Source of the DNA: Bacteroidales bacterium
GTDB taxonomy: Bacteria; Bacteroidota; Bacteroidia; Bacteroidales; P3
Reading direction: 5' to 3'
Assembly (NCBI GenBank): GCA_017455205.1
Contig: JAFTBM010000031.1
Location: forward strand, 1 to 48,000
DNA: 48,000 nt
In this document: piece after piece, positions 5,169-43,266 of the stretch
How positions within the stretch are numbered: position 1 is the first letter of the stretch
How the letters are laid out: every line of letters starts with the position of its first letter
Program-made: the position numbers and the translations under genes
Notes under the pieces: generated by a model
Told to the model about the DNA's origin: nothing
Database searches by the model: none
Seen by the model: only the letters and a program-made list of their open reading frames with translations

Positions 5169-5914
5169 TCACCTTGCAGCAATTCCAGCTCCTCCCGTAT
5201 CTCGCTCCCCAGCTGCTCCATCTCTTCTCTCGAAAGCTCCTCATAGCCATCGGGCAGCAGGAAGTCGGCCTCCTTCACCTTGCCCTTCACCACCTCGGTG
5301 GCGATGTAGGTGATGGCCTTGCCCTCGCCCATATCCATTGTGCACTGCAGCGGCATCCCCTTGATACCGTTGAACAGCATGTTGTACTTCGGCCCTATGC
5401 CCTCGCCCACCCACATCTCGACGGGGTGGTCGGTCCCCTCGTCATTGTACTGATGCCGCACCACCTTGCGCGCCTGCACCCCCACTATCTCGCGCGTCTC
5501 CGACGTGTACTCCAAGTAGAAGTGCCCTGGTTCAGTGTCCACAATCTCCAAACTGTCCAGCATCGACTGATTGACTTCCTCCCTGACGAGGATCTTCCCA
5601 TCGCCCTGATAGGTAAATTCCGACCCCTGGCCACGCAAAAAGCCCAGCAGGGGGGCAAAATTGACGCAATGCGTCGACTTCAACCCATTCACCACCACAC
5701 ACTCCTCCATCATCTCCATAAATATGGCACTCTTGGTGAACAAATCCTCGCCCATCACCTTGATTTCCGCCACCGCAGCCTCGGCGGGGATAGTCATATC
5801 CACCTGCCCCGTCGACTCCACTTTGTACTTTATCACCCCCTTAAACGCATTCTGCGCCATTGCACCAGTGGCTACCATCCCCACCAGCAGCATTCCAACT
5901 ATGCACTTTTTCAT
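5165..5914 (-). CDS. Secreted DUF4412-like protein
   Basis: A 249-residue protein with a clear signal peptide (MKKCIVGM...GAMAQ) and a mature part starting NAFKGVIKYKVES, which resembles the DUF4412 exported proteins of Bacteroidota. It contains repeated beta-strand-like segments (FYLEYTSETREIVGVQARKV; VEMWVGEGIGP) and an acidic helical tail. No catalytic residues are recognisable. It is the first gene of the run leading into ftsK and overlaps it by 4 bases. The role is unknown and the link to ftsK may be only transcriptional. Confidence 0.75.
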   Translation of the reverse strand: MKKCIVGMLLVGMVATGAMAQNAFKGVIKYKVESTGQVDMTIPAEAAVAEIKVMGEDLFTKSAIFMEMMEECVVVNGLKSTHCVNFAPLLGFLRGQGSEFTYQGDGKILVREEVNQSMLDSLEIVDTEPGHFYLEYTSETREIVGVQARKVVRHQYNDEGTDHPVEMWVGEGIGPKYNMLFNGIKGMPLQCTMDMGEGKAITYIATEVVKGKVKEADFLLPDGYEELSREEMEQLGSEIREELELLQGE

Positions 5915-6031
5915 CCCGTTTCGCTTTTTGGGTTACTTTTAATCTAACACCATTATAACACCCTCCGCCCCCTTTTATTGCCCGAACCGAAAAAAAAGTA
6001 TCCCTCTCGCCTCCCGAGCCATCGCCGAGTA

Positions 6032-6153
6032 GGGACTTCCCCCGTGCTTAATCCGTGTTTGGCCCGTGTTTGATCCGTGTTAAGTCCGACTCGAGTCGGA
6101 GGTGACACGGACCTGACACGGAGATGACACGGAGATGACACGGACCAAGTCCC
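6032..6153. repeat. 11-bp-period inverted array, copy A
   Basis: Ends are GGGACTT (6032-6038) and AAGTCCC (6147-6153), exactly symmetric about 6092.5. The left arm holds four 11-mers of the type CCGTGTTTGAT (6042-6085), the centre is the perfect 16-bp palindrome TCCGACTCGAGTCGGA (6085-6100), and the right arm holds four 11-mers of the type GATGACACGGA (6101-6144). The whole can fold into one long hairpin. It lies between the bacterioferritin-like gene and the DUF4412 gene, both on the minus strand. A near-identical copy is at 43111-43231. The rest of this 293-base gap holds nothing else I recognise. Confidence 0.9.
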
Positions 6154-6207
6154 TCTGTCGATGCGGGCGATTGGGGAGGGAGAGGGATGCCCGTTGGAAG
6201 AAAAATC

Positions 6208-6663
6208 CTACAGCTGCCTGACCAGCCAGTTTTGGACACCTATCTTCTCAATCATCTCCAGCTGCTCTTCGTCCCAGTAGAGGTCTTCTTCCTCGTCGGC
6301 GAGGTAGGCCTTGGTGATGTCGTAGGTGGTGGGGTCGGTGGCCAGGGCAGGCATGATTTTGTAGAGCGATTCCACGCCCTCGCGCTGCAGCTTGAGGTCG
6401 GCCTTGATGTACTCCACGGGGTCTTCGATGAGCCGGCTCTCCTGGTTGAGTTTCACCTGCGGCACGCATCCGAGGTCGATCATACGGTTGGCGTACTTCT
6501 CCACCCACTCCATCTCCTCGGCATAGTGGTCGAGGTACTTCTGCCCCAGCTTCTCCAGGCCGCGTGATTTGAACAGCAATCCTTGCATCTTGTGCACGAA
6601 GGCACTTCCCGAAAGTTCGCTCACAATCATCTGCGAGACTTGCAATGTCTGTGTGAAATCCAT
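6208..6663 (-). CDS. Bacterioferritin-like protein, ferroxidase ligands apparently lost
   Basis: A 151-residue four-helix protein whose ends match bacterioferritin well (EEQLEMIEKIGVQNWL resembles the family C-terminus). Aligned from memory to E. coli Bfr, E16, E50 and E124 match ligands E18, E51 and E127, and M51 matches haem ligand M52. The two His ligands are W53 and D127, and the E94 equivalent is Q93. The di-iron site therefore looks non-functional. It may act as a scaffold, haem-binding or DNA-binding relative. It is monocistronic between array A and a long AT-rich promoter region. Confidence 0.8.
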   Translation of the reverse strand: MDFTQTLQVSQMIVSELSGSAFVHKMQGLLFKSRGLEKLGQKYLDHYAEEMEWVEKYANRMIDLGCVPQVKLNQESRLIEDPVEYIKADLKLQREGVESLYKIMPALATDPTTYDITKAYLADEEEDLYWDEEQLEMIEKIGVQNWLVRQL

Positions 6664-18968: not shown

Positions 18969-19898
18969 ATGAAAAAGGAGGCTTCGGTTAATATCCATGA
19001 AATTGATAATCGCATTATTGGACATTTCCAAATGCTAAACACCTCGGACAAAAACGTCATCCGAGAGGACATCATTTTGATAATGGAAGATCCTCCCCTG
19101 TTCAAAAGCTACCTTGCCAATATGCCGCATCATTTGCCTATGCATCGCATCGTGGTTACCATTAAAGGAACTGCACATATAACAGTCAATTTTATTGATT
19201 ATACTCTACAAGAAGGAGACTTGATTGTAATTCCTGCCAATTATATTGTGCAATACAATCACCAATCGCCCGATTTCTCTGTGCGTGCTTTGGCATTTAA
19301 TTTTAATACGGAGGAAGAGAATCTTCTTATGCCTACCGACACGATTAAGGCAAGCACTGACAATCGAGACCTCAATATTTTCGACAATTATTTCTCGCTA
19401 CTACAACGACTTTTGCATGAGGAAGCTAATAATAAACTGGAGATAACCTCTCTTGTCATTGCCCTGCTGCACAGAGTGCAAACCGTCATTAGCTATTACC
19501 ACACTCTAAGACAGCCTTCTTGCAATAGCGCCACCAAGAAGCTCTGCTCTGCTTTCATCAAACTCGTCATGCAGCAAGCCAACCCCAACCAGCCTGTATC
19601 ATTCTATGCCGACCAGCTCTGCACATCAGCTAACTATTTGGATACCGTTGTGAAAACACATACCAATAGGACTCCCCGACAATGGATTGCTCAACGCGTC
19701 TTTGCCCATATATGCCAGCTGCTACTCTCGCCCGACAATATTCCTATCAAAGAAATTGCCTATCAAACCGGCTATTCCTCACCGACGCAGCTTATCCGCT
19801 TCTTCAAACAGCACGCTTCAGGCCACTCTCCCAGTAAGTTCAGGAAGTTGTATCAACACCAGACTATTAGGCTTCAACTTTCAGAGCGAGACTGTTAG
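18969..19898 (+). CDS. AraC-family transcriptional regulator
   Basis: A 309-residue regulator. Residues 1-160 form a cupin-like sensing domain (IVVTIKGTAHITVNFIDYTLQEGDLIVIPANYIVQY). The C-terminal 100 residues carry two helix-turn-helix motifs (SFYADQLCTSANYLDTVVKTHTNRTPRQWI and PIKEIAYQTGYSSPTQLIRFFKQHASGHSPSKFR). ATG 18969 is used; a TTG-started longer frame begins inside the promoter. It is AT-rich, divergent from the lipoprotein gene, and overlaps the convergent receptor gene by 18 bases. It probably controls the lipoprotein/barrel operon; the inducer is unknown. Confidence 0.93.
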   Translation: MKKEASVNIHEIDNRIIGHFQMLNTSDKNVIREDIILIMEDPPLFKSYLANMPHHLPMHRIVVTIKGTAHITVNFIDYTLQEGDLIVIPANYIVQYNHQSPDFSVRALAFNFNTEEENLLMPTDTIKASTDNRDLNIFDNYFSLLQRLLHEEANNKLEITSLVIALLHRVQTVISYYHTLRQPSCNSATKKLCSAFIKLVMQQANPNQPVSFYADQLCTSANYLDTVVKTHTNRTPRQWIAQRVFAHICQLLLSPDNIPIKEIAYQTGYSSPTQLIRFFKQHASGHSPSKFRKLYQHQTIRLQLSERDC

Positions 19899-22367
19899 TC
19901 TCACGTTAAGCTGGCGGGCGGTCAGGTAGCTGGGCACGCGGTAGGGGCGACCATCATAGTCGGCTACCCACAGGTAGGACGAGACATTTTTCTGGTCGAA
20001 CAAGTTGAACACCAGCAGCGAAAGCTGCACGTCGTCGATATGCCATCGGCTGAGTCTGCGCTTGACTGCACCAAAGCGCGAGAGCTGCACCGTGTTGCCC
20101 CAGTCAATGCGGAAGTAGGCGGGGAAACGCAACGGCTCTTCGCGGGGAGCATAGTTGGAGGCCAGCGGTGCCCCAGTGGCATAGACCAGCGTCAAGCTCA
20201 TCCGCCACCACGGGAAGCGTGGCACATAGTCCTGCACAAACACCTTCAGCGAGAGCCGCTGGTCGGTCGGCCTCGGATACCACCCCATCCCGTCGCCTTC
20301 CACCTCCTGGCGCGACTGCATGAGGTGCAGGCTCACCCACGACTCGAGGCTGTCCACCAGTTCGGCATTCACCCTCAGGCAGAAGCCTGTGGCGTAGGCT
20401 CGAGCGTGGGCATCAGGGTCGTAGACAAGGCTGAGGTTGTCCACCACATAGGGTACTATCTGCGGCATATATTTCCCGTAGAGGTCGCCCGTGATGCGCA
20501 TCGGCATTGCCCCGAGGTGCAGACTCCAGTCGGCAGTGGCCGCCACCTGCCACGACCGCTGCGGCTTAACAGAGGCAGCCAACGTCCCATCGGCACGCCG
20601 ATATTCCCTATACACCGCTGGCTGCGTATACCCACCCGCCGAGAGGCGAAAGCGCATCGCAGTCTCCCAACCGGGGTTGAAGGTGGCACTCAATCGCGGG
20701 TCGGCGTAGGCCCCCACGGGAAGCACCTGTTGCTCATCGTACCACGTCTGCCGTGCGCGATAGGCTCCACCCCTCACCCCCGCCAGCAGTTGCAGCTCTC
20801 GCCTCGCGCCGAGGCTGAAGTTTAGCTCGCGCTGCACGAAGGCCACGCCCCGCAGGGTGGCGACCCCGCCCGAGGAGTTGGAAAAGTCCTGCAGCATAGG
20901 CACCGAGGGCATATTGGCCGAGTCGCCCGCCACGGGAATGACCGCTGGCATGGCGTAGCCTGCCGAGTCCATCCAAAGCCAATGGCGGCGACGGTCGGCG
21001 GCTGCCTCGTATTGCACCCTCCCTCCTACCTGCCACTGCCCGAGGGCTGCATCGCGCGAAGCAGCGAGGTTGGCCGAGAGAATATCGGTCTGCAACCGCC
21101 CACGCGAATGCTCGAGGAAGGTGCCCACGCCGCGGTCGAAACGCTCCACGTCGCCCCCAGCCTCGCCCATGCCGAGCTCGTAGAGCCAATACTGGCTTTG
21201 CACGTGGTATTCCTCGCTCTCGGCCACGCGCTGCGCCGCAAGGTTGGCTTTCAGCTGCCAAAGCTCGCCCGGGCGATAGTTGAGCGTCAGCGCACCGAGC
21301 AGCGTGCGGTAGCGATCCTGCTCAGCTCCATCGAAGTAGACATCCAGCTCCATCGAGCGCTGGCTGAAGGCCGTGGTGCGACTTTCGGGCACCAGCCCAT
21401 AGCTGTTGGCCGAACCGATGAGCAGCAGGCCGAGGTCGAGCCGCTCCGAGGCTCGATAGTGGAGCAGCGACTGCCAGTCGGCGTAGGCCGAGGTGTAAGC
21501 CCCCTCGGTCTCCATCGACCGCAGCAGGTAGCTGTTGGAATGGTAGCGGAGCGAAGTAGCCAGCGAAAGCCGCTCCGAGAAGGGCATCAGCCAGGTGGCC
21601 GACCCTCCGAGCAGCGAGGCCGAGAGCGTCAGCCGCCGAGCAGCAGGGCGATGGTAGGCAATGTCGAGCACCGACGACATCTTGTCGCCAAACGAGGCAT
21701 CAAATCCCCCAGGCGAGAACTGCACGGCACCGACCAAGTCGGGATTGATGATGCTCATGCCCTCCTGCTGGCCACTGCGGACAAGCATCGGGCGGAAGAC
21801 CTCCACCCCGTTGATATACACCAGGTTTTCGTCAAACGAACCTCCCCTAACCGAATACTGCGACGACATCTCGTTGGAGGAATTGACATCGGGCAGCGTC
21901 TTCACCAAGTCCTCCACCCCACCGCTGGGACCATCGCTCGCCTGCAAATGCTCAAGCTTGATGCCGCGAAAGCCATCATCGGTCGGGCGCTGGCCGCTGA
22001 CCTGCACTTCGCCGAGCGTTTTGGCCGCTGGCACCAACAGCACATCGAGCCTAATCTCGCCCGCAGTGTCGCTTCCCAACGCTATTCGCCGCGGGCGGTA
22101 GCCTGTGTGGGAAAAGCGCAGCACCACTTCGCCCCCTCGTGGCAACGACAAGCGATAGCGGCCAGCGGCATCGGTGGCCGTCCCCTCGGTCCGACCCTCC
22201 ACACCCACATTGGCAAACTCCACTACCTGCCCCGAAGCGCTATCCTTCACCACTCCCTTCACCACACACTGCCCCTCCACCGCCATGGCGGAGACCAGCA
22301 GCAGCATTATGGCTATCCATCTTTTCACAACCCTCTGTAACGCTCCACACCGCCTTTTATTGCCCAC
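19881..22367 (-). CDS. TonB-dependent receptor with CarboxypepD_reg-like N-domain
   Basis: An 828-residue outer membrane receptor: signal peptide (hydrophobic stretch 17-32), a carboxypeptidase regulatory-like beta domain (about 34-112), a plug (about 115-235; SSQYSVRGGSFDENLVYINGVEVFRP) and a large barrel ending in LTVSL. It imports a ligand using TonB energy. No SusD partner is nearby, so a siderophore, metal or cofactor is more likely than a glycan; this is inference. The start is uncertain by some 15 residues. It overlaps the end of the convergent araC-like gene by 18 bases. Confidence 0.92.
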   Translation of the reverse strand: MGNKRRCGALQRVVKRWIAIMLLLVSAMAVEGQCVVKGVVKDSASGQVVEFANVGVEGRTEGTATDAAGRYRLSLPRGGEVVLRFSHTGYRPRRIALGSDTAGEIRLDVLLVPAAKTLGEVQVSGQRPTDDGFRGIKLEHLQASDGPSGGVEDLVKTLPDVNSSNEMSSQYSVRGGSFDENLVYINGVEVFRPMLVRSGQQEGMSIINPDLVGAVQFSPGGFDASFGDKMSSVLDIAYHRPAARRLTLSASLLGGSATWLMPFSERLSLATSLRYHSNSYLLRSMETEGAYTSAYADWQSLLHYRASERLDLGLLLIGSANSYGLVPESRTTAFSQRSMELDVYFDGAEQDRYRTLLGALTLNYRPGELWQLKANLAAQRVAESEEYHVQSQYWLYELGMGEAGGDVERFDRGVGTFLEHSRGRLQTDILSANLAASRDAALGQWQVGGRVQYEAAADRRRHWLWMDSAGYAMPAVIPVAGDSANMPSVPMLQDFSNSSGGVATLRGVAFVQRELNFSLGARRELQLLAGVRGGAYRARQTWYDEQQVLPVGAYADPRLSATFNPGWETAMRFRLSAGGYTQPAVYREYRRADGTLAASVKPQRSWQVAATADWSLHLGAMPMRITGDLYGKYMPQIVPYVVDNLSLVYDPDAHARAYATGFCLRVNAELVDSLESWVSLHLMQSRQEVEGDGMGWYPRPTDQRLSLKVFVQDYVPRFPWWRMSLTLVYATGAPLASNYAPREEPLRFPAYFRIDWGNTVQLSRFGAVKRRLSRWHIDDVQLSLLVFNLFDQKNVSSYLWVADYDGRPYRVPSYLTARQLNVRLTVSL

Positions 22368-22454: not shown

Positions 22455-22545
22455 CTTAACCAATCGTTCTTCAATCGTTCTTCAATCGTTCTTCAATAGC
22501 CGATTGAAGAACTATTGAAGAACTATTGAAGAACTATTGAAGAAC
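22455..22545. repeat. 11-bp-period inverted array, copy C
   Basis: The left arm has three GTTCTTCAATC/A units (22466-22498) preceded by a degenerate fourth (22455-22465). A 3-base centre (GCC, 22499-22501) follows, then four GATTGAAGAAC/TATTGAAGAAC units (22502-22545). Symmetry is centred on 22500. The period and four-plus-four design match arrays A and B, although the unit sequence differs. It lies between the terminator of the upstream receptor gene and the start of the next. Confidence 0.9.
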
Positions 22546-22552
22546 TGACGGT

Positions 22553-31599: not shown

Positions 31600-32904
31600 C
31601 TACTGCTGGATGAGCGAGAGGTTGTAGGCCACCTTGAGGCCGAAGAAGAGCAGCGTGGCTTTGTTGTCGTAGGCCGTCTGACCAATCTGGTGCTGCTGCT
31701 CGAAGATGTCCACCACCTTCAGCTCCACCTCGCTTGTGCCCACCTTGGCCGCAGGCTGCACCTGCAGCGTCAGCCCCAAGTCGAAGTTGCCTTTTCGATA
31801 GCCGAAACCCAGCGAGCCGAAGAAGGCCGAAGGGCGCACGGTCAGCTCTTGGTCGGCATAGACGAGGTCGCCGTAGGCATCCAGCGACTGGTCGCGGTGC
31901 GAGTAGTGGCGGCTCTGAAGCGGAAGAGCATAACCCGCAGCAGCCTCCACGTAGAGGTCGCTGTTGAGGAGGTAGCGTGCGCCGAGGGTTATGGGTAGCG
32001 TGGCGATGGCCACCGCCGAGGGACCGCCAAGGCTGAAGCTATACGGGTAATAGGCTCCTGCCTCCGAGGCGATAGTCCCCATCGGCTCCCATCGTGCTGC
32101 CTGGCTCAAATAGCCCACGCCTACACCCAGCACGAGGTAGGGCGTTACGGTGTAGCCACACTCCACCTTGGGCGAAAAACCAAAGGTTATATCATCGGTT
32201 ACCCCCGCAGCGAAGCTGCCCGTGAGGATAAACCCCTTCTGCGGCGGAAGCATCATGTAGGTGGTATCGTCCCCCGATGCCCAAGGCTCGCTGTCGCTAC
32301 GCATAACCAGCCCACGCACAAACTCATCGTAGAGCCGCTCGGCACTTTTGATTCCCGACGCCGTCGCAGTCAGCTCCTTGGCCGGCACCGACCGCGAGTA
32401 GAGAAACCTCTCGCCCGTGCGCCCCTGGAAGGTGAGGTAGGCTCGTGCACCTCCTTCTTCAATATAGTTATATTCCAAGATGAGGTCGGCCTGGTCGCGC
32501 GTGGCCACCAGTCGCCAATAGTCGTCGCGGATAATCAGCTCCGTCAGCCGACGGCCTCCCCACGCCTGCTGCACTCCCCGCTTTCCCATCGGGACGTAGA
32601 CCCGCAAGCCCTCCGACCCTATGAGGTCGGTCGCCCCGTTGGGGAACGCCTTCGGCGGGGCAGCCATCAGGGCCTCTGGGTGCAACACCACAGTCTCCCC
32701 CGCCATATCCTCCACCGCAGCCACCCGCGAGGTGGGAACATACACCGAAGCCATCCCCTCGAAACCTACCGTCAGCAGCGAATCGGCTTCGAGGCTCGAA
32801 AGCGTCCAGTAGCACGCCCCATCGGTGGTCTGCACCAGCCGCTGTGCACCAGCCGTCGCTGCACACGCCACGAGTGCCATCACTATGGAGAGGCGTTTCT
32901 TCAT
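31600..32904 (-). CDS. Exported protein with C-terminal beta-barrel-like domain, family unknown
   Basis: A 434-residue protein with a signal peptide (ending AGAQ). Residues 20-210 form a mixed domain (ADLILEYNYIEEGGARAYLTFQGRTGERF recalls small outer-surface beta domains). Residues 225-434 show alternating strands (GFILTGSFAAGVTDDITFGFSPKVECGY ... LGLTLQVQPAAKVG ... FFGLKVAYNLSLIQQ) like an outer membrane barrel. It is transcribed from a TATATTTG box and lies upstream of the FISUMP-like lipoprotein. Confidence 0.7.
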   Translation of the reverse strand: MKKRLSIVMALVACAATAGAQRLVQTTDGACYWTLSSLEADSLLTVGFEGMASVYVPTSRVAAVEDMAGETVVLHPEALMAAPPKAFPNGATDLIGSEGLRVYVPMGKRGVQQAWGGRRLTELIIRDDYWRLVATRDQADLILEYNYIEEGGARAYLTFQGRTGERFLYSRSVPAKELTATASGIKSAERLYDEFVRGLVMRSDSEPWASGDDTTYMMLPPQKGFILTGSFAAGVTDDITFGFSPKVECGYTVTPYLVLGVGVGYLSQAARWEPMGTIASEAGAYYPYSFSLGGPSAVAIATLPITLGARYLLNSDLYVEAAAGYALPLQSRHYSHRDQSLDAYGDLVYADQELTVRPSAFFGSLGFGYRKGNFDLGLTLQVQPAAKVGTSEVELKVVDIFEQQHQIGQTAYDNKATLLFFGLKVAYNLSLIQQ

Positions 32905-32979
32905 CTGCGGTTGCTGTTGCCGTACATGATTTCGTTGCTTTATCTACGCTGCCCGCTTGACTGCCAGCGTTTGAAAGTG

Positions 32980-32987
32980 CAAATATA
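32980..32987 (-). promoter_or_regulatory. Predicted promoter (TATATTTG) for the 31600-32904 gene
   Basis: On the minus strand TATATTTG fits the -7 consensus, 76 bases before the ATG. A CTTG at 33008-33011 (minus strand), 20 bases upstream, could serve as -33. Confidence 0.6.
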
Positions 32988-33283
32988 CGATGTTTTTCTC
33001 AATTCTGCAAGAAAAAATTGCAACCATCCCATTTTTTCCGCACCGCCAGCCATCGCTGCCGCTCTTGTTCTCCCCTTTTCGGAGGGGAGGCTGGGATCAA
33101 TTCCAGCAATTTCATCTTCACTTTCTGCAGCCATCCGCCCTTCCATCCCAGCGCTCCCTCCACCCCACCCCACCACTCCCACCGCCCGCCTCTCCCGTCG
33201 CCTTTTCAGCATCCTTTTCTCGTCCATTTCCGCCCGTCCAGGAGCCTCTTTTCAGCCCCCTGCTCTCCACCCCGTTTTTTGAA

Positions 33284-33307
33284 ACTATTTCGCGCACGAA
33301 CTAATTT
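33284..33307. repeat. 24-bp palindrome, degenerate copy
   Basis: AACTATTTCG (33284-33293), a 4-base loop and CGAACTAATT (33298-33307) pair at 8 of 10 positions. The sequence is the same as the perfect palindrome at 33571-33594 in its right arm. Both copies end in TAATTTTG, which also matches a -7 box. Confidence 0.7.
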
Positions 33308-33348
33308 TGCCCTCCTGCCACCCGCCCTGCTACCCCTCCCCATCCTCT

Positions 33349-33424
33349 CCGTATTTTCTCCGCCCGGATACGGACTTGATACGGAGCGGATACGGAGGGG
33401 ATACGGAGGGGATACGGAGGGGAT
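33349..33424. repeat. 11-bp-period array D
   Basis: Five head-to-tail 11-mers of the type TACGGAGGGGA fill 33370-33424; the last three are identical. They are preceded by CTCCGTATTTT and CTCCGCCCGGA (33349-33369), which supply inverted half-units. The phase-shifted unit ATACGGAGGGG matches ACACGGAGATG of arrays A and B at 8 of 11 positions, so D looks like a lop-sided member of the same family. Confidence 0.85.
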
Positions 33425-33570
33425 GCCTACCGACGAGTATCAGGATACTGACAATGAAGTAGTTGCATTTTTACAAAATCTTATTACGGCTGTATTTCAG
33501 TCGTTTGGAGGTAATTTCCGCTGGCTAAAAAGAGGCATCCGCGGAGGGTTGCCGATAGGGGCAAATTTGC

Positions 33571-33594
33571 AATTAGTTCGTGCGCGAACTAATT
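33571..33594. repeat. 24-bp perfect palindrome
   Basis: AATTAGTTCG (33571-33580), loop TGCG, CGAACTAATT (33585-33594) is a perfect 10-bp inverted repeat. It lies 45 bases from the djlA-like stop and could be a protein-binding dyad or part of a terminator for a minus-strand transcript. Confidence 0.8.
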
Positions 33595-33638
33595 TTGGGG
33601 GCTTTTCGAGGGTGTTTTTCTGCTGCCTGCCGAGGGGG

Positions 33639-34466
33639 CTATTTGAGGCTTTGGCGGCGGGATTTGATCACCTCGTAGGCTTGGTTGATTTCCTGCATCT
33701 GCTGGGCAGCGTTGCGCTGGATTTCCTCGCTCATGCCAGCCACGCGGTCGGGGTGGTATTTCATGGCCATGCGGCGGTAGGCGCGGCGCACTTCGTCGTC
33801 GGTGGCCGAGCTATCGATGCCGAGCACTCGGTAGGGGTCTTTGTTGTAGGCAGCGGTGGAGGAACGGTTGCTGCCCTGCTGATGGCTTTGGCTGCGCTGG
33901 CTCTGGCTGCCAGTGGCGGCGGCGTGGCGGGCGTGCATGGAGAGGTAGTCGGTGGTGGCGATGCCGAGGCGGGATGCGATGCGGTGGAGGGTGTTGATTT
34001 CGGCGGGGTGGAGCTCGGCATCGGCGGCAGCTATGGCGAAGAGGAAGTCGAGCATGTGGTAGCGGGTGTCGTAGGCGGTATTGACCTTGATTTGTTGGCA
34101 GACTTGGTCGAGGGGGATGTCGGCATCGACCATCTGGCGGAGGATGCCCAGCATTTCTTTGCCTCGCTGTTCGCCGTAGTTGGTCAGCAGGAATTGCTTG
34201 ACGAGGGTCAGTTCGCTGCGTTTGACCACTCCGTCGGCCTTCATGACGGCGGCGATAAGAACCATGAGTGCGGCATTGAAGTCGGCCTGCGAGCCGCTGT
34301 CGCGGTAGGGGGAGTGTGGGGTGTGGAGGGGTGGTGCATCAGGGGTGTCGGTGGGGTTTTTGTCGGGCGCGATGGATTTGCCCAGCACGTAGCCGAGCAG
34401 TGCGCCAATGGGGCCTGCGATGGCCCAGCCGAGGCCAGCGAAGAGGTAGCGGGTGAATTTTGCCAT
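33639..34466 (-). CDS. TerB/DnaJ-domain protein, DjlA-like
   Basis: A 275-residue co-chaperone-like protein: an N-terminal Gly-rich membrane segment (about 5-32), a TerB-like helical domain (about 60-180; AALMVLIAAVMKADGVVKRSEL, FAIAAADAELHPAEI), a Ser/Gln linker and a C-terminal J domain (210-275) with the HPD motif at 238-240. The J domain should recruit a DnaK-type Hsp70 near the membrane. It follows the GH3/beta-lactamase gene by 12 bases. Confidence 0.92.
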   Translation of the reverse strand: MAKFTRYLFAGLGWAIAGPIGALLGYVLGKSIAPDKNPTDTPDAPPLHTPHSPYRDSGSQADFNAALMVLIAAVMKADGVVKRSELTLVKQFLLTNYGEQRGKEMLGILRQMVDADIPLDQVCQQIKVNTAYDTRYHMLDFLFAIAAADAELHPAEINTLHRIASRLGIATTDYLSMHARHAAATGSQSQRSQSHQQGSNRSSTAAYNKDPYRVLGIDSSATDDEVRRAYRRMAMKYHPDRVAGMSEEIQRNAAQQMQEINQAYEVIKSRRQSLK

Positions 34467-40042: not shown

Positions 40043-42883
40043 CTAACACACTATGTTGATAATCTTTTTCGGCACGAATATCACTTTCTTCGGCTCGGCA
40101 CCACCCAGCCATTTCTGCCCTTCGGGCATGGACTTGATGATGTCGAGGGCTTGCTGCTGCGTGCAGTCGGCGGCGAGTTCCACCGTGAAGCGCATCTTGC
40201 CATTGAACTGGACGGGGTATTTCACCTTGCTTTCCACCAGCCAACGCCCGTCGAACTGGGGCCACCGTGCGTCGCACACCGACCCATCGTGTCCCAGCCT
40301 GTGCCACAATTCCTCGGCTATATGCGGAGCCAGCGGTGCAATCAGCACTGCCAACGGCTCCAACACCTCCAAGTGGCGGCACCGCAGCTCGCCCAGCTGG
40401 TTGGCACATATCATAAAGGTGGAGACCACCGTGTTGAACGAGAAGCGCTCCACATCGTCGGTAACGCGCTTGATGGTCTGGTGCAGCACCTTCATCTCCT
40501 CCGCGCTTGGCTCTCCTTCGGCGGGAGATTCCAATGCGCTGTCGAACAGCCTCCAGAACTTCTTCAGGAAGCGATGCACCCCCTCGATGCCATTGGTGTC
40601 CCACGGCTTGGCTTGCTCCACTGGCCCAAGAAACATCTCGTAGAGGCGCAGTGTGTCGGCACCATAGCGGTCTACCAAGTCGTCGGGATTTTGCACGTTG
40701 AACATGCTCTTGCTCATCTTCTCCACCTCCCATCCGCAGACGTACTTTCCCTCCTCCAGCTCGAACCTCGCCTCGGCAAACTCGGGGCGCCAACGGCGGA
40801 AACGCTCGATGTCGAGCACGTCGTTGTCCACCATGTTGATGTCCACATGGATGGGGGTTACCTCCTCCATGTTCTTTATCCGCCCCTTCGAGATGAAGAG
40901 GCCGTTGTCCTGCTTCGAGCGGTAGACGAAGTTGCTCCGCCCCTGTATCATGCCTTGGTTGATGAGCTTTTTGAAGGGTTCGTCCTTGACGGCGAGGCCG
41001 AGGTCGAAGAGGAACTTGTTCCAGAAGCGAGCATAGATGAGATGCCCTGTGCCATGTTCGGCACCGCCTACGTAGAGGTCGACGTTCTGCCAGTAGCCCA
41101 CTGCCTCGGGCGAGAAGTAGGCCTCGTCGTTGTGTGCATCCATGTAGCGGAGGTAGTAGCCACTGCTGCCCGCAAAGCCTGGCATAGTGCTCAACTCGAG
41201 TGGGAAGACCGTGGCCTCATCCACCAGGCTTTTGTCCACCACGCACCGCTTGACCTCGTCCCAAGCCCACCGCTTCGCATGACCCAGCGGTGGTTCGCCG
41301 CTGGCCGTGGGCTTGAAGTCGTCCACCTCGGGCAATTCCAGTGGCAAGCACTCCTCGGGCAGGGTGTAGGCCACGCCTTGCTTATAGTAGACTGGGAACG
41401 GCTCTCCCCAGTAGCGCTGACGGCTGAAGATGGCATCGCGCAGGCGGTAGTTCACCGTGCGCCGACCGATGCCCATTTCCTCTATCTTGTCGATGACGGC
41501 CTTCATGGCCTCCTTGACCTTCATGCCGGTGGCGAAACCACTATTGACCGCCCAGCCCGACTTGCTGTCGAGGCTCTCGGTCCAAGTCGAGGGGTCGCTG
41601 ACGGCATCCTTCTCGGCAGCCACCACCTGGCGTATCGGCAAGCCGAAATGGCGTGCAAAGGCAAAGTCGCGGCTGTCGTGCGCTGGCACCGCCATGATGG
41701 CTCCAGTGCCGTAGCCAGCCAGCACATAGTCGCTCACCCAGATAGGTATCTTCTCCTCGGTCAGCGGATTGACGGCGTAGGCACCGCTAAACACGCCGCT
41801 CACCCGCTTCACCTCGGCCTGCCGCTCACGTTCCGAGCGGTTCTTGGCCCAAGCCACATAGTCGGCCACCTGCTGCCGCTGCGCCTCGGTGGTGATAGTC
41901 GCAATCAGCTCATGTTCTGGGCAGAGCACCATGAAGGTTACGCCGAAGATGGTGTCGGGTCGGGTGGTGAATATCTCAAACGAGAGGCCATCCTCCCTCC
42001 CACTGACGGGGAACCACACCGCAGCTCCCTCCGAGCGGCCAATCCAGTTGCGCTGTATCTCCTTGAGCGAGTCGGTCCAATCCACCTGCTCCAGCCCGTC
42101 GACCAGCCTCTGGGCGTAGGCCGAGATGCGCAGGCTCCACTGCCGCATCAGTTTGCGCTCCACGGGGTAGCCGCCGCGCACGCTCAAGCCGCCCACCACC
42201 TCGTCGTTGGCCAGCACCGTGCCAAGCTCTGGACACCAGTTCACCGCCGTGTCGGCCAAGTAGGCCAGCCGGTAGTTCATCAGCACCTGTCGCCGACGCG
42301 GCTCATCCCACGCGTTCCACTCCGCTGCCGTGAAGGCCATCGGCTCGGTGCAAGCGGCCTCAAGCCCCTCGGTGCCCTGGCGGGCGAAACGCTCCTCGAG
42401 CGCAGCTATGGGCAGCGCCTTGTCGGCAGCGCGGTCGTAGTAGTGGCCAAAGAGCTGGATGAAGGTCCACTGCGTCCACTTGTAGTAGCGCGGGTCGCAC
42501 GTCCTCACCTCGCGGCTCCAATCGAAGCTGAAGCCTATCTTGTCCAGCTGCTCACGGTAGCGGCGGATGTTCTGCTCGGTGGTCAAGGCGGGGTGCTGCC
42601 CCGTCTGGATAGCATACTGCTCGGCGGGCAGCCCGTAGGCATCATAGCCCATCGGATGCAGCACGTTGAAGCCTTGCAAACGCTTGTAGCGGCTGAATAT
42701 GTCGCTGGCAATGTAGCCCAGCGGATGCCCCACATGCAGCCCCGCCCCCGAGGGGTAAGGAAACATGTCGAGCACATAGTAGTGTGGACGGTCGCCGCCG
42801 TTCTCCACACGATAAATTCCCTCCTCGCGCCAGCTCTTCTGCCAACGCGACTCTATGGCTCTGAAATCATATTCCATTTTCAC
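40043..42883 (-). CDS. leuS: Leucyl-tRNA synthetase
   Basis: A 946-residue class I synthetase charging tRNA-Leu. HVGH is at residues 50-53 and KMSKS at 722-726; the editing domain (about 230-430; [28 protein letters not shown]) and the anticodon-binding C-terminus are present. The first Met may be M3 (42877). A TATCTTTG box is about 41 bases upstream. The complementary strand has a very long open frame caused only by codon bias. Confidence 0.97.
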
Positions 42884-42923
42884 TCAATGTTTTGCGCCAG
42901 TTCTCCACTCGAACCGACCTTTG

Positions 42924-42931
42924 CAAAGATA
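42924..42931 (-). promoter_or_regulatory. Predicted -7 box (TATCTTTG) for leuS
   Basis: On the minus strand TATCTTTG matches the consensus exactly, 41-47 bases before the candidate ATGs. A CTTG about 20 bases further upstream could be a weak -33. Confidence 0.6.
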
Positions 42932-43110: not shown

Positions 43111-43231
43111 GGGACTTGGGGCGTGTTTGCTCCGTGCATGATCCGTGTTTGATCCGTGTTAGGTCCGTATCGAGTCGGAGGTGACACGGACCTGACACGG
43201 AGTTGACACGGAGATGACACGGACCAAGTCC
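43111..43231. repeat. 11-bp-period inverted array, copy B
   Basis: GGACTTGG (43112-43119) and CCAAGTCC (43224-43231) close the array, symmetric about 43171.5. Four left units (43121-43164; CCGTGTTTGAT type) face four right units (43180-43223; GATGACACGGA type). The centre CCGTATCGAGTCGGA is an eroded version of the perfect palindrome in copy A. The same unit order, length and orientation as copy A at 6032-6153. Confidence 0.9.
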
Positions 43232-43233
43232 TA

Positions 43234-43266
43234 ATTGAAAATTGAGAATTGAGAATTGAAAATTGG
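43234..43266. repeat. 7-bp-period AT-rich repeat
   Basis: About four and a half copies of ATTGAGA/ATTGAAA in tandem follow array B directly. AATTGAGAATTGAGAATTG tracts of this kind are seen in intergenic DNA of many Bacteroidota. No function is evident. Confidence 0.7.

Follow-up and report, generated by a model that had tools for sequence, protein, structure and literature searches.

Operators of the OmpR/PhoB type, built of tandem 11-bp direct repeats, and iterons offer helically phased direct sites to a DNA-binding protein. Dispersed repeats of another build are on record in Bacteroidetes, where CGTC-tagged REPs are reported as dispersed palindromes without a dedicated transposase (PMC3733652). 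The arrays considered here appear to be DNA binding arrays, or else mobile repeats, of a kind not yet described, and titles and opening lines of abstracts in the literature held no description of such 11-nt arrays. They are found in a 48,000-nt stretch of a Bacteroidales genome, the whole of which is called the window, and they present the feature of a phased operator, namely conserved cores at a helical step.

Arrays in the window

Two copies of the main family, A (6032-6153) and B (43111-43231), lie on the minus strand, and their sequence agrees with the coordinates and ends given in a first-pass annotation. Read on the minus strand, copy A runs GGGACTTGG-(TCCGTGTCANN)x4-TCCGACTCGAGTCGGA-(degenerate complementary arm x4)-AAGTCCC. 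The layout shared by A and B on this strand opens with (A)GGACTTGG and four TCCGTGTCANN units; a centre of 16 nt (TCCG at its start, CGGA at its end) follows, then four degenerate AACACGGNNCA-type units and finally AAGTCCC. The closing ends of copy A, GGGACTT (6032-6038) and AAGTCCC (6147-6153), enclose four left 11-mers, which form the variable second arm (6041-6084, minus strand, from the sequence and the arm comparison), the centre and the right units. The centre, TCCGACTCGAGTCGGA (6085-6100), is indeed the perfect 16-bp palindrome that had been reported. The conserved arm (6103-6144, minus strand) holds four TCCGTGTCA cores at an 11-nt step, visible on the plus strand as TGACACGGA units starting at 6103, 6114, 6125 and 6136. 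In copy B, the closing ends are GGGACTT (43111-43117) and CCAAGTCC (43224-43231), the four TCCGTGTCA cores occupy 43182-43223 on the minus strand (TGACACGGA starting at 43182, 43193, 43204 and 43215), and the central dyad, TCCGTATCGAGTCGGA (43164-43179), is an imperfect palindrome. The proposed arrangement of four plus four reverse-complement units thus holds as a layout; the implied equality of the arms does not, because the TGACACGGA arm is near-invariant, the CCGTGTTTG arm is variable and the two pair imperfectly.

Copy B lies about 230 bp upstream of leuS (40043-42877, minus strand), identified by Pfam as leucyl-tRNA synthetase. Between the two is TATCTTTGCA (42922-42931, minus strand), a match to TANNTTTGC, which we take to be the Bacteroidetes promoter motif (-7). 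An array of 7-nt units (AATTGAA) adjoins copy B at 43233-43265. Besides A and B, the window contains two further 11-nt arrays. One, at 22461-22546, is a hairpin array of a second family (CAATCGTTCTT / ATTGAAGAACT) with exact repeats on both arms, about 150 bp upstream of a called gene (19881-22307, minus strand). The other, at 33366-33424 on the minus strand, belongs to a third, TCCG-type family with units TCCGTATCCCC and sits in the gap 32904-33639. The four arrays of these three families follow one another at distances of 16.4, 10.9 and 9.8 kb. Palindromes of the TTAGTTCGTGCGCGAACTAA type flank the 33366 array on either side (within 33270-33590), and a similar palindrome, TATATCGTGCGCGAT, stands beside an array in the genome G012 (L047).

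Copies, arms and ends in the source genome

The main family comprises 79 places plus one decayed copy (L262) in the 2.17-Mb source genome (93% complete); the 80 detections of our tables correspond to 79 places, since L223 is counted in both orientations. The pair that had been presented as a 37-kb duplication is therefore not special, A and B being two of about 80 copies. A blastn search of the source genome returned at least 40 places on the query's strand (best 40 of 80 candidates scored). The 20-mer TGACACGGA-NN-TGACACGGA, with up to two mismatches, has 260 genome matches and its reversed control none, so the array is not a product of chance, and a centre-junction pattern identified 77 exact places. 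The extracted loci contain 259 of the 260 genome-wide 20-mer matches, and all but one of these 259 fall in recognised copies, the sole exception being the decayed copy L262. Neither observation named at the outset as refuting, a lack of further copies or an assembly duplication, applies.

With one mismatch per core tolerated, the conserved arm has four units in 76 of the 79 places, five in two and six in one. Among 74 distinct full-length four-unit copies, pairwise diversity is 0.0044 over the 36 core positions, compared with 0.326 in the dinucleotide spacers, 0.331 in the second arm and 0.158 in the centre. The TCCGTGTCA arm is thus about 75 times less diverse than the other arm, which has a loose consensus of its own, AAACACGGACC or near it, and pairs imperfectly with the TGACACGGA arm. 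Copying of the whole element followed by ageing would leave both arms equally aged. Since the observed arms differ, either strong selection acts on the TCCGTGTCA arm at almost all places, or this arm is refreshed independently. Over 0.49 Mb of loci, a profile built from the second arm and the right flank recovered one place without an intact first arm (L262); strongly decayed copies elsewhere would escape this profile. The earlier suggestion that the element is mobile or selected accords with some 80 dispersed copies in which one arm is almost frozen.

About 20 main-family copies share a decaying right extension of around 95 nt, and many have 7-nt arrays, (CAATTYT)n or (ATAACCY)n, at their left flank. 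Over about 177 bp, the right flanks of L232, L254 and L256 are 89-97% identical, which hints that a longer segment was duplicated or is mobile. GTAG stands beside one end in most copies (GGTAGGGACTT; per-base 32 to 36 of 40); inspection by eye did not show it to be shared by the other 11-nt families. The element has inverted ends (copy A). Across 78 flank pairs, two of the 15 best offsets for a target duplication of at least 4 nt exceed their 50 shuffles by one count, which is expected from so many offsets; there is no clear duplication of this length to speak for MITE-type insertion. Orientation is unbiased with respect to GC skew (40 of 80 with positive skew) and to the local coding majority (48 of 80 along it). 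Copy A has no match in the phage and plasmid collections, and a phage or plasmid origin was discarded on these grounds. The exact 20-mer pattern occurs in two viral contigs, one of which (L304, part read) shows three tandem units, and the loose TCCG pattern described below matches 74 viral contigs. By a hand count, 16 of the 138 contig ends of the source genome have an element within about 600 bp, where three or four would be expected (contigs C9, C13, C23, C26, C34, C52, C56 and C57 of G000 are among them); the elements or neighbouring DNA may break the assembly.

Mobilisation by a RAYT-like enzyme was also considered and rejected, because Y1_Tnp does not follow array abundance and the Y1 genes of the source genome lie near other palindromes. 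Y1_Tnp is present in 40 of 59 genus genomes, source included. Seven genomes (G009, G014, G026, G065, G074, G075 and G081) have at least 10 array matches and no Y1 match, and G001 has seven Y1 matches and no array. The three source Y1 loci (L049, L050 and L051, on C62, C39 and C6 of G000) carry no array in their extracted flanks. Each appears by eye to lie near a palindromic repeat of its own (CCCAGGGC..., GCGTGCC... and GGCGAAG..., respectively), and the Y1 match of L051 falls within a long open frame that itself carries the repeats.

These observations bear on the main rival of the interpretation favoured below, a purely selfish, non-autonomous repeat (REP- or MITE-like) that brings the host no gain. 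Its array would be the recognition end of a transposase, and its copies would settle in long intergenic gaps as the only ones tolerated. We regard this as a serious, if rather doubtful, possibility. The roughly 80 dispersed copies with common ends, the decayed right extension in about 20 of them and a copy number that depends on the species, with pattern matches ranging from 0 to 295 per genome, are what such a repeat would produce; position conservation mostly accounted for by gap length and the lack of an evident regulon also fit. However, equal ageing of the arms would then be expected, whereas their diversity differs about 75-fold, and one decayed copy was found in 0.49 Mb of loci. The absence of a target duplication of at least 4 nt, the missing link to a Y1 transposase and the even spacing of the copies argue in the same direction.

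Gene context and spacing

Genes were called with a simple codon-usage caller rather than a standard annotator, and by these calls no detection lies inside a gene, the edge overlaps being 29 nt (L238) and 1 nt (L239). This bears out the first-pass view that the element is not coding. Both neighbouring genes were called for 66 detections, of which 24 sit in divergent, 22 and 13 in tandem (one count per orientation) and 7 in convergent gaps. In these loci, the 58 gaps that lack an array and measure at least 150 bp are distributed as 42 tandem, 11 divergent and 5 convergent, and divergent gaps are thus in excess among those with arrays (24/66 versus 11/58, P 0.025 by counts). The distance to the gene start is at least 100 nt in 84 of 89 cases. 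Of 70 5' gaps, 39 have TANNTTTGC in the direction of the gene between element and gene, none has it within the element and 2 have it beyond (in the 300 nt past the element). On the opposite strand it stands between element and gene in 1 gap and beyond in 23, the latter as expected of divergent neighbours. The elements hence lie upstream of promoter motifs. Of 72 5' gaps, 31 are without the promoter motif; a looser form, TANNTTTG, gave 43 matches compared with 10 in its control. The downstream genes, 20 in addition to leuS, are of mixed function (two of the 20 without a family at the cut-off), so there is no evident regulon, and a reading of the arrays as the sites of one was rejected.

The arrays are spaced more evenly than chance in the source genome and in four of five contiguous segments of relatives. 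In the source genome, 38 within-contig distances range from 5.9 to 46.9 kb with a CV of 0.56 against a null mean of 0.97, and none of 2000 null draws reached so low a value; this null was not restricted to gaps, the position list was compiled by hand, and contig ends near elements could mask short distances. With all 11-nt families pooled, the five segments have CVs of 0.43, 0.73, 0.45, 0.46 and 0.52 (P 0.0085, 0.16, 0.018, 0.03 and 0.012, respectively; combined 5.5e-5) under a null of random picks among gaps of at least 150 bp, with 6 of the 67 arrays outside those gaps. The evenness is not significant in G012 (P 0.16), and counts of distances below 4 kb alone, with gaps taken as equally likely, are significant in none of the five segments (P 0.05 to 0.29).

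The gene context also bears on a possible role in RNA. The hairpin might act in a transcript as a terminator, a stability element, an RNase III substrate or a one-arm small RNA, with 11 nt corresponding to one turn of an A-form stem. Folding of both strands, proposed in the first-pass annotation, yielded strong structures: either strand of A and B reaches -66 to -75 kcal/mol (z -7.3 to -10.6 versus shuffles), and both strands of the 22461 array fold strongly as well. Moreover, a conserved arm facing one that merely pairs resembles a precursor hairpin. In a family of G012, six copies have perfectly paired arms of 48-55 nt with changes matched in both arms, the single exception being one outer mismatch in L272, which points to pairing or arm-to-arm copying there. 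Against this, of the 80 detections, one on one strand and none on the other has a T5 tract no more than 12 nt after the hairpin, and an intrinsic terminator was rejected on this ground, in line with the earlier remark that the element is no ordinary terminator. Rfam 15 covariance models had no match in positions 5600-6600 of the window up to E 1. Base counts opposite the cores favour neither RNA strand, and strand-specific G-U pairing was therefore discarded. Of 67 arrays from five other species, 23 form a good hairpin, with 18 or more of 22 positions paired, and 30 do not surpass the best of their shuffles; the second arm is optional. The long RNA stem, one of two roles originally proposed, becomes less likely given the 24 of 66 detections between divergent genes, the position of TANNTTTGC (39 versus 2 of 70) and these 23 of 67 hairpins, and we consider an RNA element improbable.

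The wider 11-nt class

The exact word is nearly private to the source genome, as a DNA search matched 3 of 61 genomes, source included. A looser TCCG-N4-A-N2 array, (TCCGNNNNANN)3-TCCG with up to two mismatches, is present in 64 of 119 same-genus genomes (source included) and at least 10 times in 29 of the 119, with 0 to 295 matches per genome and a top count of 198 outside the source genome. Its reversed control matches 19 of the 119 genomes, mostly once or a few times. The control has 213 matches in G093, suggesting another abundant 11-nt array family there, and 16 in G108. At one mismatch, the loose pattern occurs in 9 of 295 genomes across the order (source included; reversed control 2) and in none of three genomes of the sister genus. 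Among the matches listed from a collection of named sequences are MAGs of Bacteroidales from rumen and horse gut (one bearing the title Candidatus Colimorpha), scattered other bacteria, and two-armed forms in a Verrucomicrobia MAG and a Prevotella MAG. The inner letters of the TCCG arrays vary between the species read.

The word changes between species at a constant step. A leuS query matched all 119 genus genomes, some weakly, and several of 26 leuS upstream regions (source included) carry 11-nt arrays of quite different words, for example TGCTTAGGTAA x8, GTTGTACTATC and GGGAGCGGACT. An array scan flagged 6 of 29 other leuS loci (L197, L206, L207, L216, L217 and L220). Several 11-nt words coexist within one genome, and words are homogeneous within a family. 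Pooled intergenic TRF rows from eight relatives number 63, 15, 28, 7, 79, 0 and 0 for unit lengths 7 to 13, which makes 11 the most frequent period and 7 the second, and intergenic lag counts give a similar picture. This sample consists of 100-472-kb segments of eight species, in which one hairpin can yield two rows; species and contigs of the four array-rich segments were chosen for arrays seen before, and the other four segments come from species with 0 to 2 loose-pattern matches. Rows of 7 nt exceed those of 11 nt in G139 (44 to 20) and G117 (11 to 10), and G016, G027 and G125 have 1, 2 and 0 rows of 11 nt. The favoured pooled unit lengths are 7, 9 and 11, most 7-nt and 9-nt rows coming from G139. 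In 20 other families of the order, sampled over 259 kb, the scan revealed no 11-nt array.

Orthologous 5' gaps are occupied in 8 of 41 cases compared with 3 of 78 (P 0.008), and in 8 of 26 compared with 1 of 9 once gap length is controlled (P 0.24). Among array-flanking genes with a relative in the source genome, 21 of 27 hit an array-flanking gene, versus 47 of 169 other genes, a comparison that includes the source-genome locus L063 and leuS-selected loci. Positional conservation, suggestive at leuS but not significant at controlled gap length, was hence not accepted as functional proof.

Many words at one step, homogeneous within a family, might also arise if the arrays were made and refreshed by a polymerase with an 11-nt step, be it a reverse transcriptase of the telomerase-like kind or one that slips at hairpins, so that the word would mirror a template instead of site selection. 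A precedent is given by DRT10 enzymes, which synthesise 9-nt tandem repeats on a template loop with little conservation among homologues (PMC12632851). We find templated or slippage-born arrays highly improbable: 259 of the 260 20-mer matches lie in known loci, so that no separate long template is seen, the arrays have a usual length of four units, and the sole RVT_1 match in the source genome (93% complete) lies beside template/variable-repeat-like sequence, as judged by eye. That locus (L240:1130-2516 and L374, G000:C31:1857-2570), with the reverse transcriptase preceded by this sequence, looks like a diversity-generating retroelement; a main-family array follows the reverse transcriptase frame by about 550 bp, probably by chance. 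A DNA-shape element, in which 11 bp would be the helical repeat of negatively supercoiled DNA and a repeated 11-mer would bend coherently and pin supercoils, fits the 11-bp step, the divergent-promoter placement, the even spacing and the link commonly drawn between a periodicity of about 11 bp and the pitch of supercoiled DNA (PMC4132750; disputed, according to the summary of PMC7537859), but is scarcely credible, because 30 family units are no more curved than shuffled units (mean percentile 0.43 in a wedge model), by which curved DNA was rejected, the main family is nearly straight, and near-invariant cores point to sequence rather than shape.

One site per turn on one face is the simplest DNA-level reason for an 11-nt step, and a phased binding array is favoured on this account. 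What is kept across families is the step, unlike the word, the second arm or curvature; within the main family the cores are kept as well. Hence, the helically phased binding platform, the other role suggested at the outset, is still the best reading, since the 11-nt step persists across families and the second arm and the word do not. We propose, with slightly less than even confidence, that the element is an intergenic repeat, dispersed and non-autonomous, in which the conserved arm forms a putative binding array acting at the DNA level. A DNA-binding protein could seat four protomers side by side on one DNA face, at four TCCGTGTCA sites one helical turn (11 bp) apart, and the central dyad and the weaker inverted sites on the other arm might complete the platform. 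Protein binding would then account for the constraint on the cores, and the arrays would have spread by copying. Once bound, the array may play an architectural role or mark a boundary where transcription units meet, above all between divergent promoters. In favour of this interpretation stand the near-invariance of one arm alone, the usual number of four units, the position upstream of promoter motifs, the excess of divergent gaps, the even spacing and the frequency of period 11 in relatives. Several results weigh against it, among them the lack of an evident regulon, the non-significant occupancy of orthologous 5' gaps at controlled gap length, the non-significant evenness in G012, the 31 of 72 5' gaps without a promoter motif, the matched changes in paired arms of the G012 family, and the surplus of 7-nt rows in G139 and G117 with no 11-nt row in G125.

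A bolder and less probable version is a categorically new class of chromosomal element in which the 11-bp step is conserved and the sequence is free. Each species would have its own 11-mers, refreshed genome-wide at evenly spaced transcription-unit borders, which would imply that the binding protein evolves fast or that some copying machinery measures out 11 nt. If confirmed, the arrays would make up a class of repeats that is set by the length of the step instead of by sequence, with words that differ between species of one genus. How dispersed bacterial repeats stay homogeneous without a visible transposase, and whether evenly spaced binding arrays mark bacterial transcription-unit borders, would become testable, the more than 100 species of the genus serving as natural replicates.

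Among known systems, REP/BIME repeats with RAYT (Y1) enzymes are likewise high-copy, intergenic, palindromic and lineage-specific, and GTAG near one end of most main-family copies adds to the resemblance. However, they are hairpins of 20-40 bp, whereas the element is a 122-nt tandem 11-nt array; array-rich genomes exist without any Y1 match, and in the other 11-nt families no common GTAG was seen. CGTC-tagged REPs are similar as dispersed palindromes without a dedicated transposase but consist of 8-9-bp stems and a CGTC tag in place of tandem 11-nt arms (PMC3733652). The element resembles MITEs in being short, non-coding and dispersed with inverted arms, and differs in that no target duplication of at least 4 nt was seen, one arm is frozen and the other variable, and the tandem step is fixed. 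Heptameric and other short prokaryotic tandem repeats also form short-unit intergenic arrays, and 7-nt arrays adjoin many copies here, but the element usually has four units, a second arm with a central dyad, and dispersed copies of one word. OmpR/PhoB-type operators and iterons differ from an element with about 80 copies per genome, no evident regulon, several words per genome and a word that changes between species. What the arrays have in common with them is the set of helically phased direct sites, with protein binding putative here, and it is like a phased operator array that the element, on the best reading, would work.
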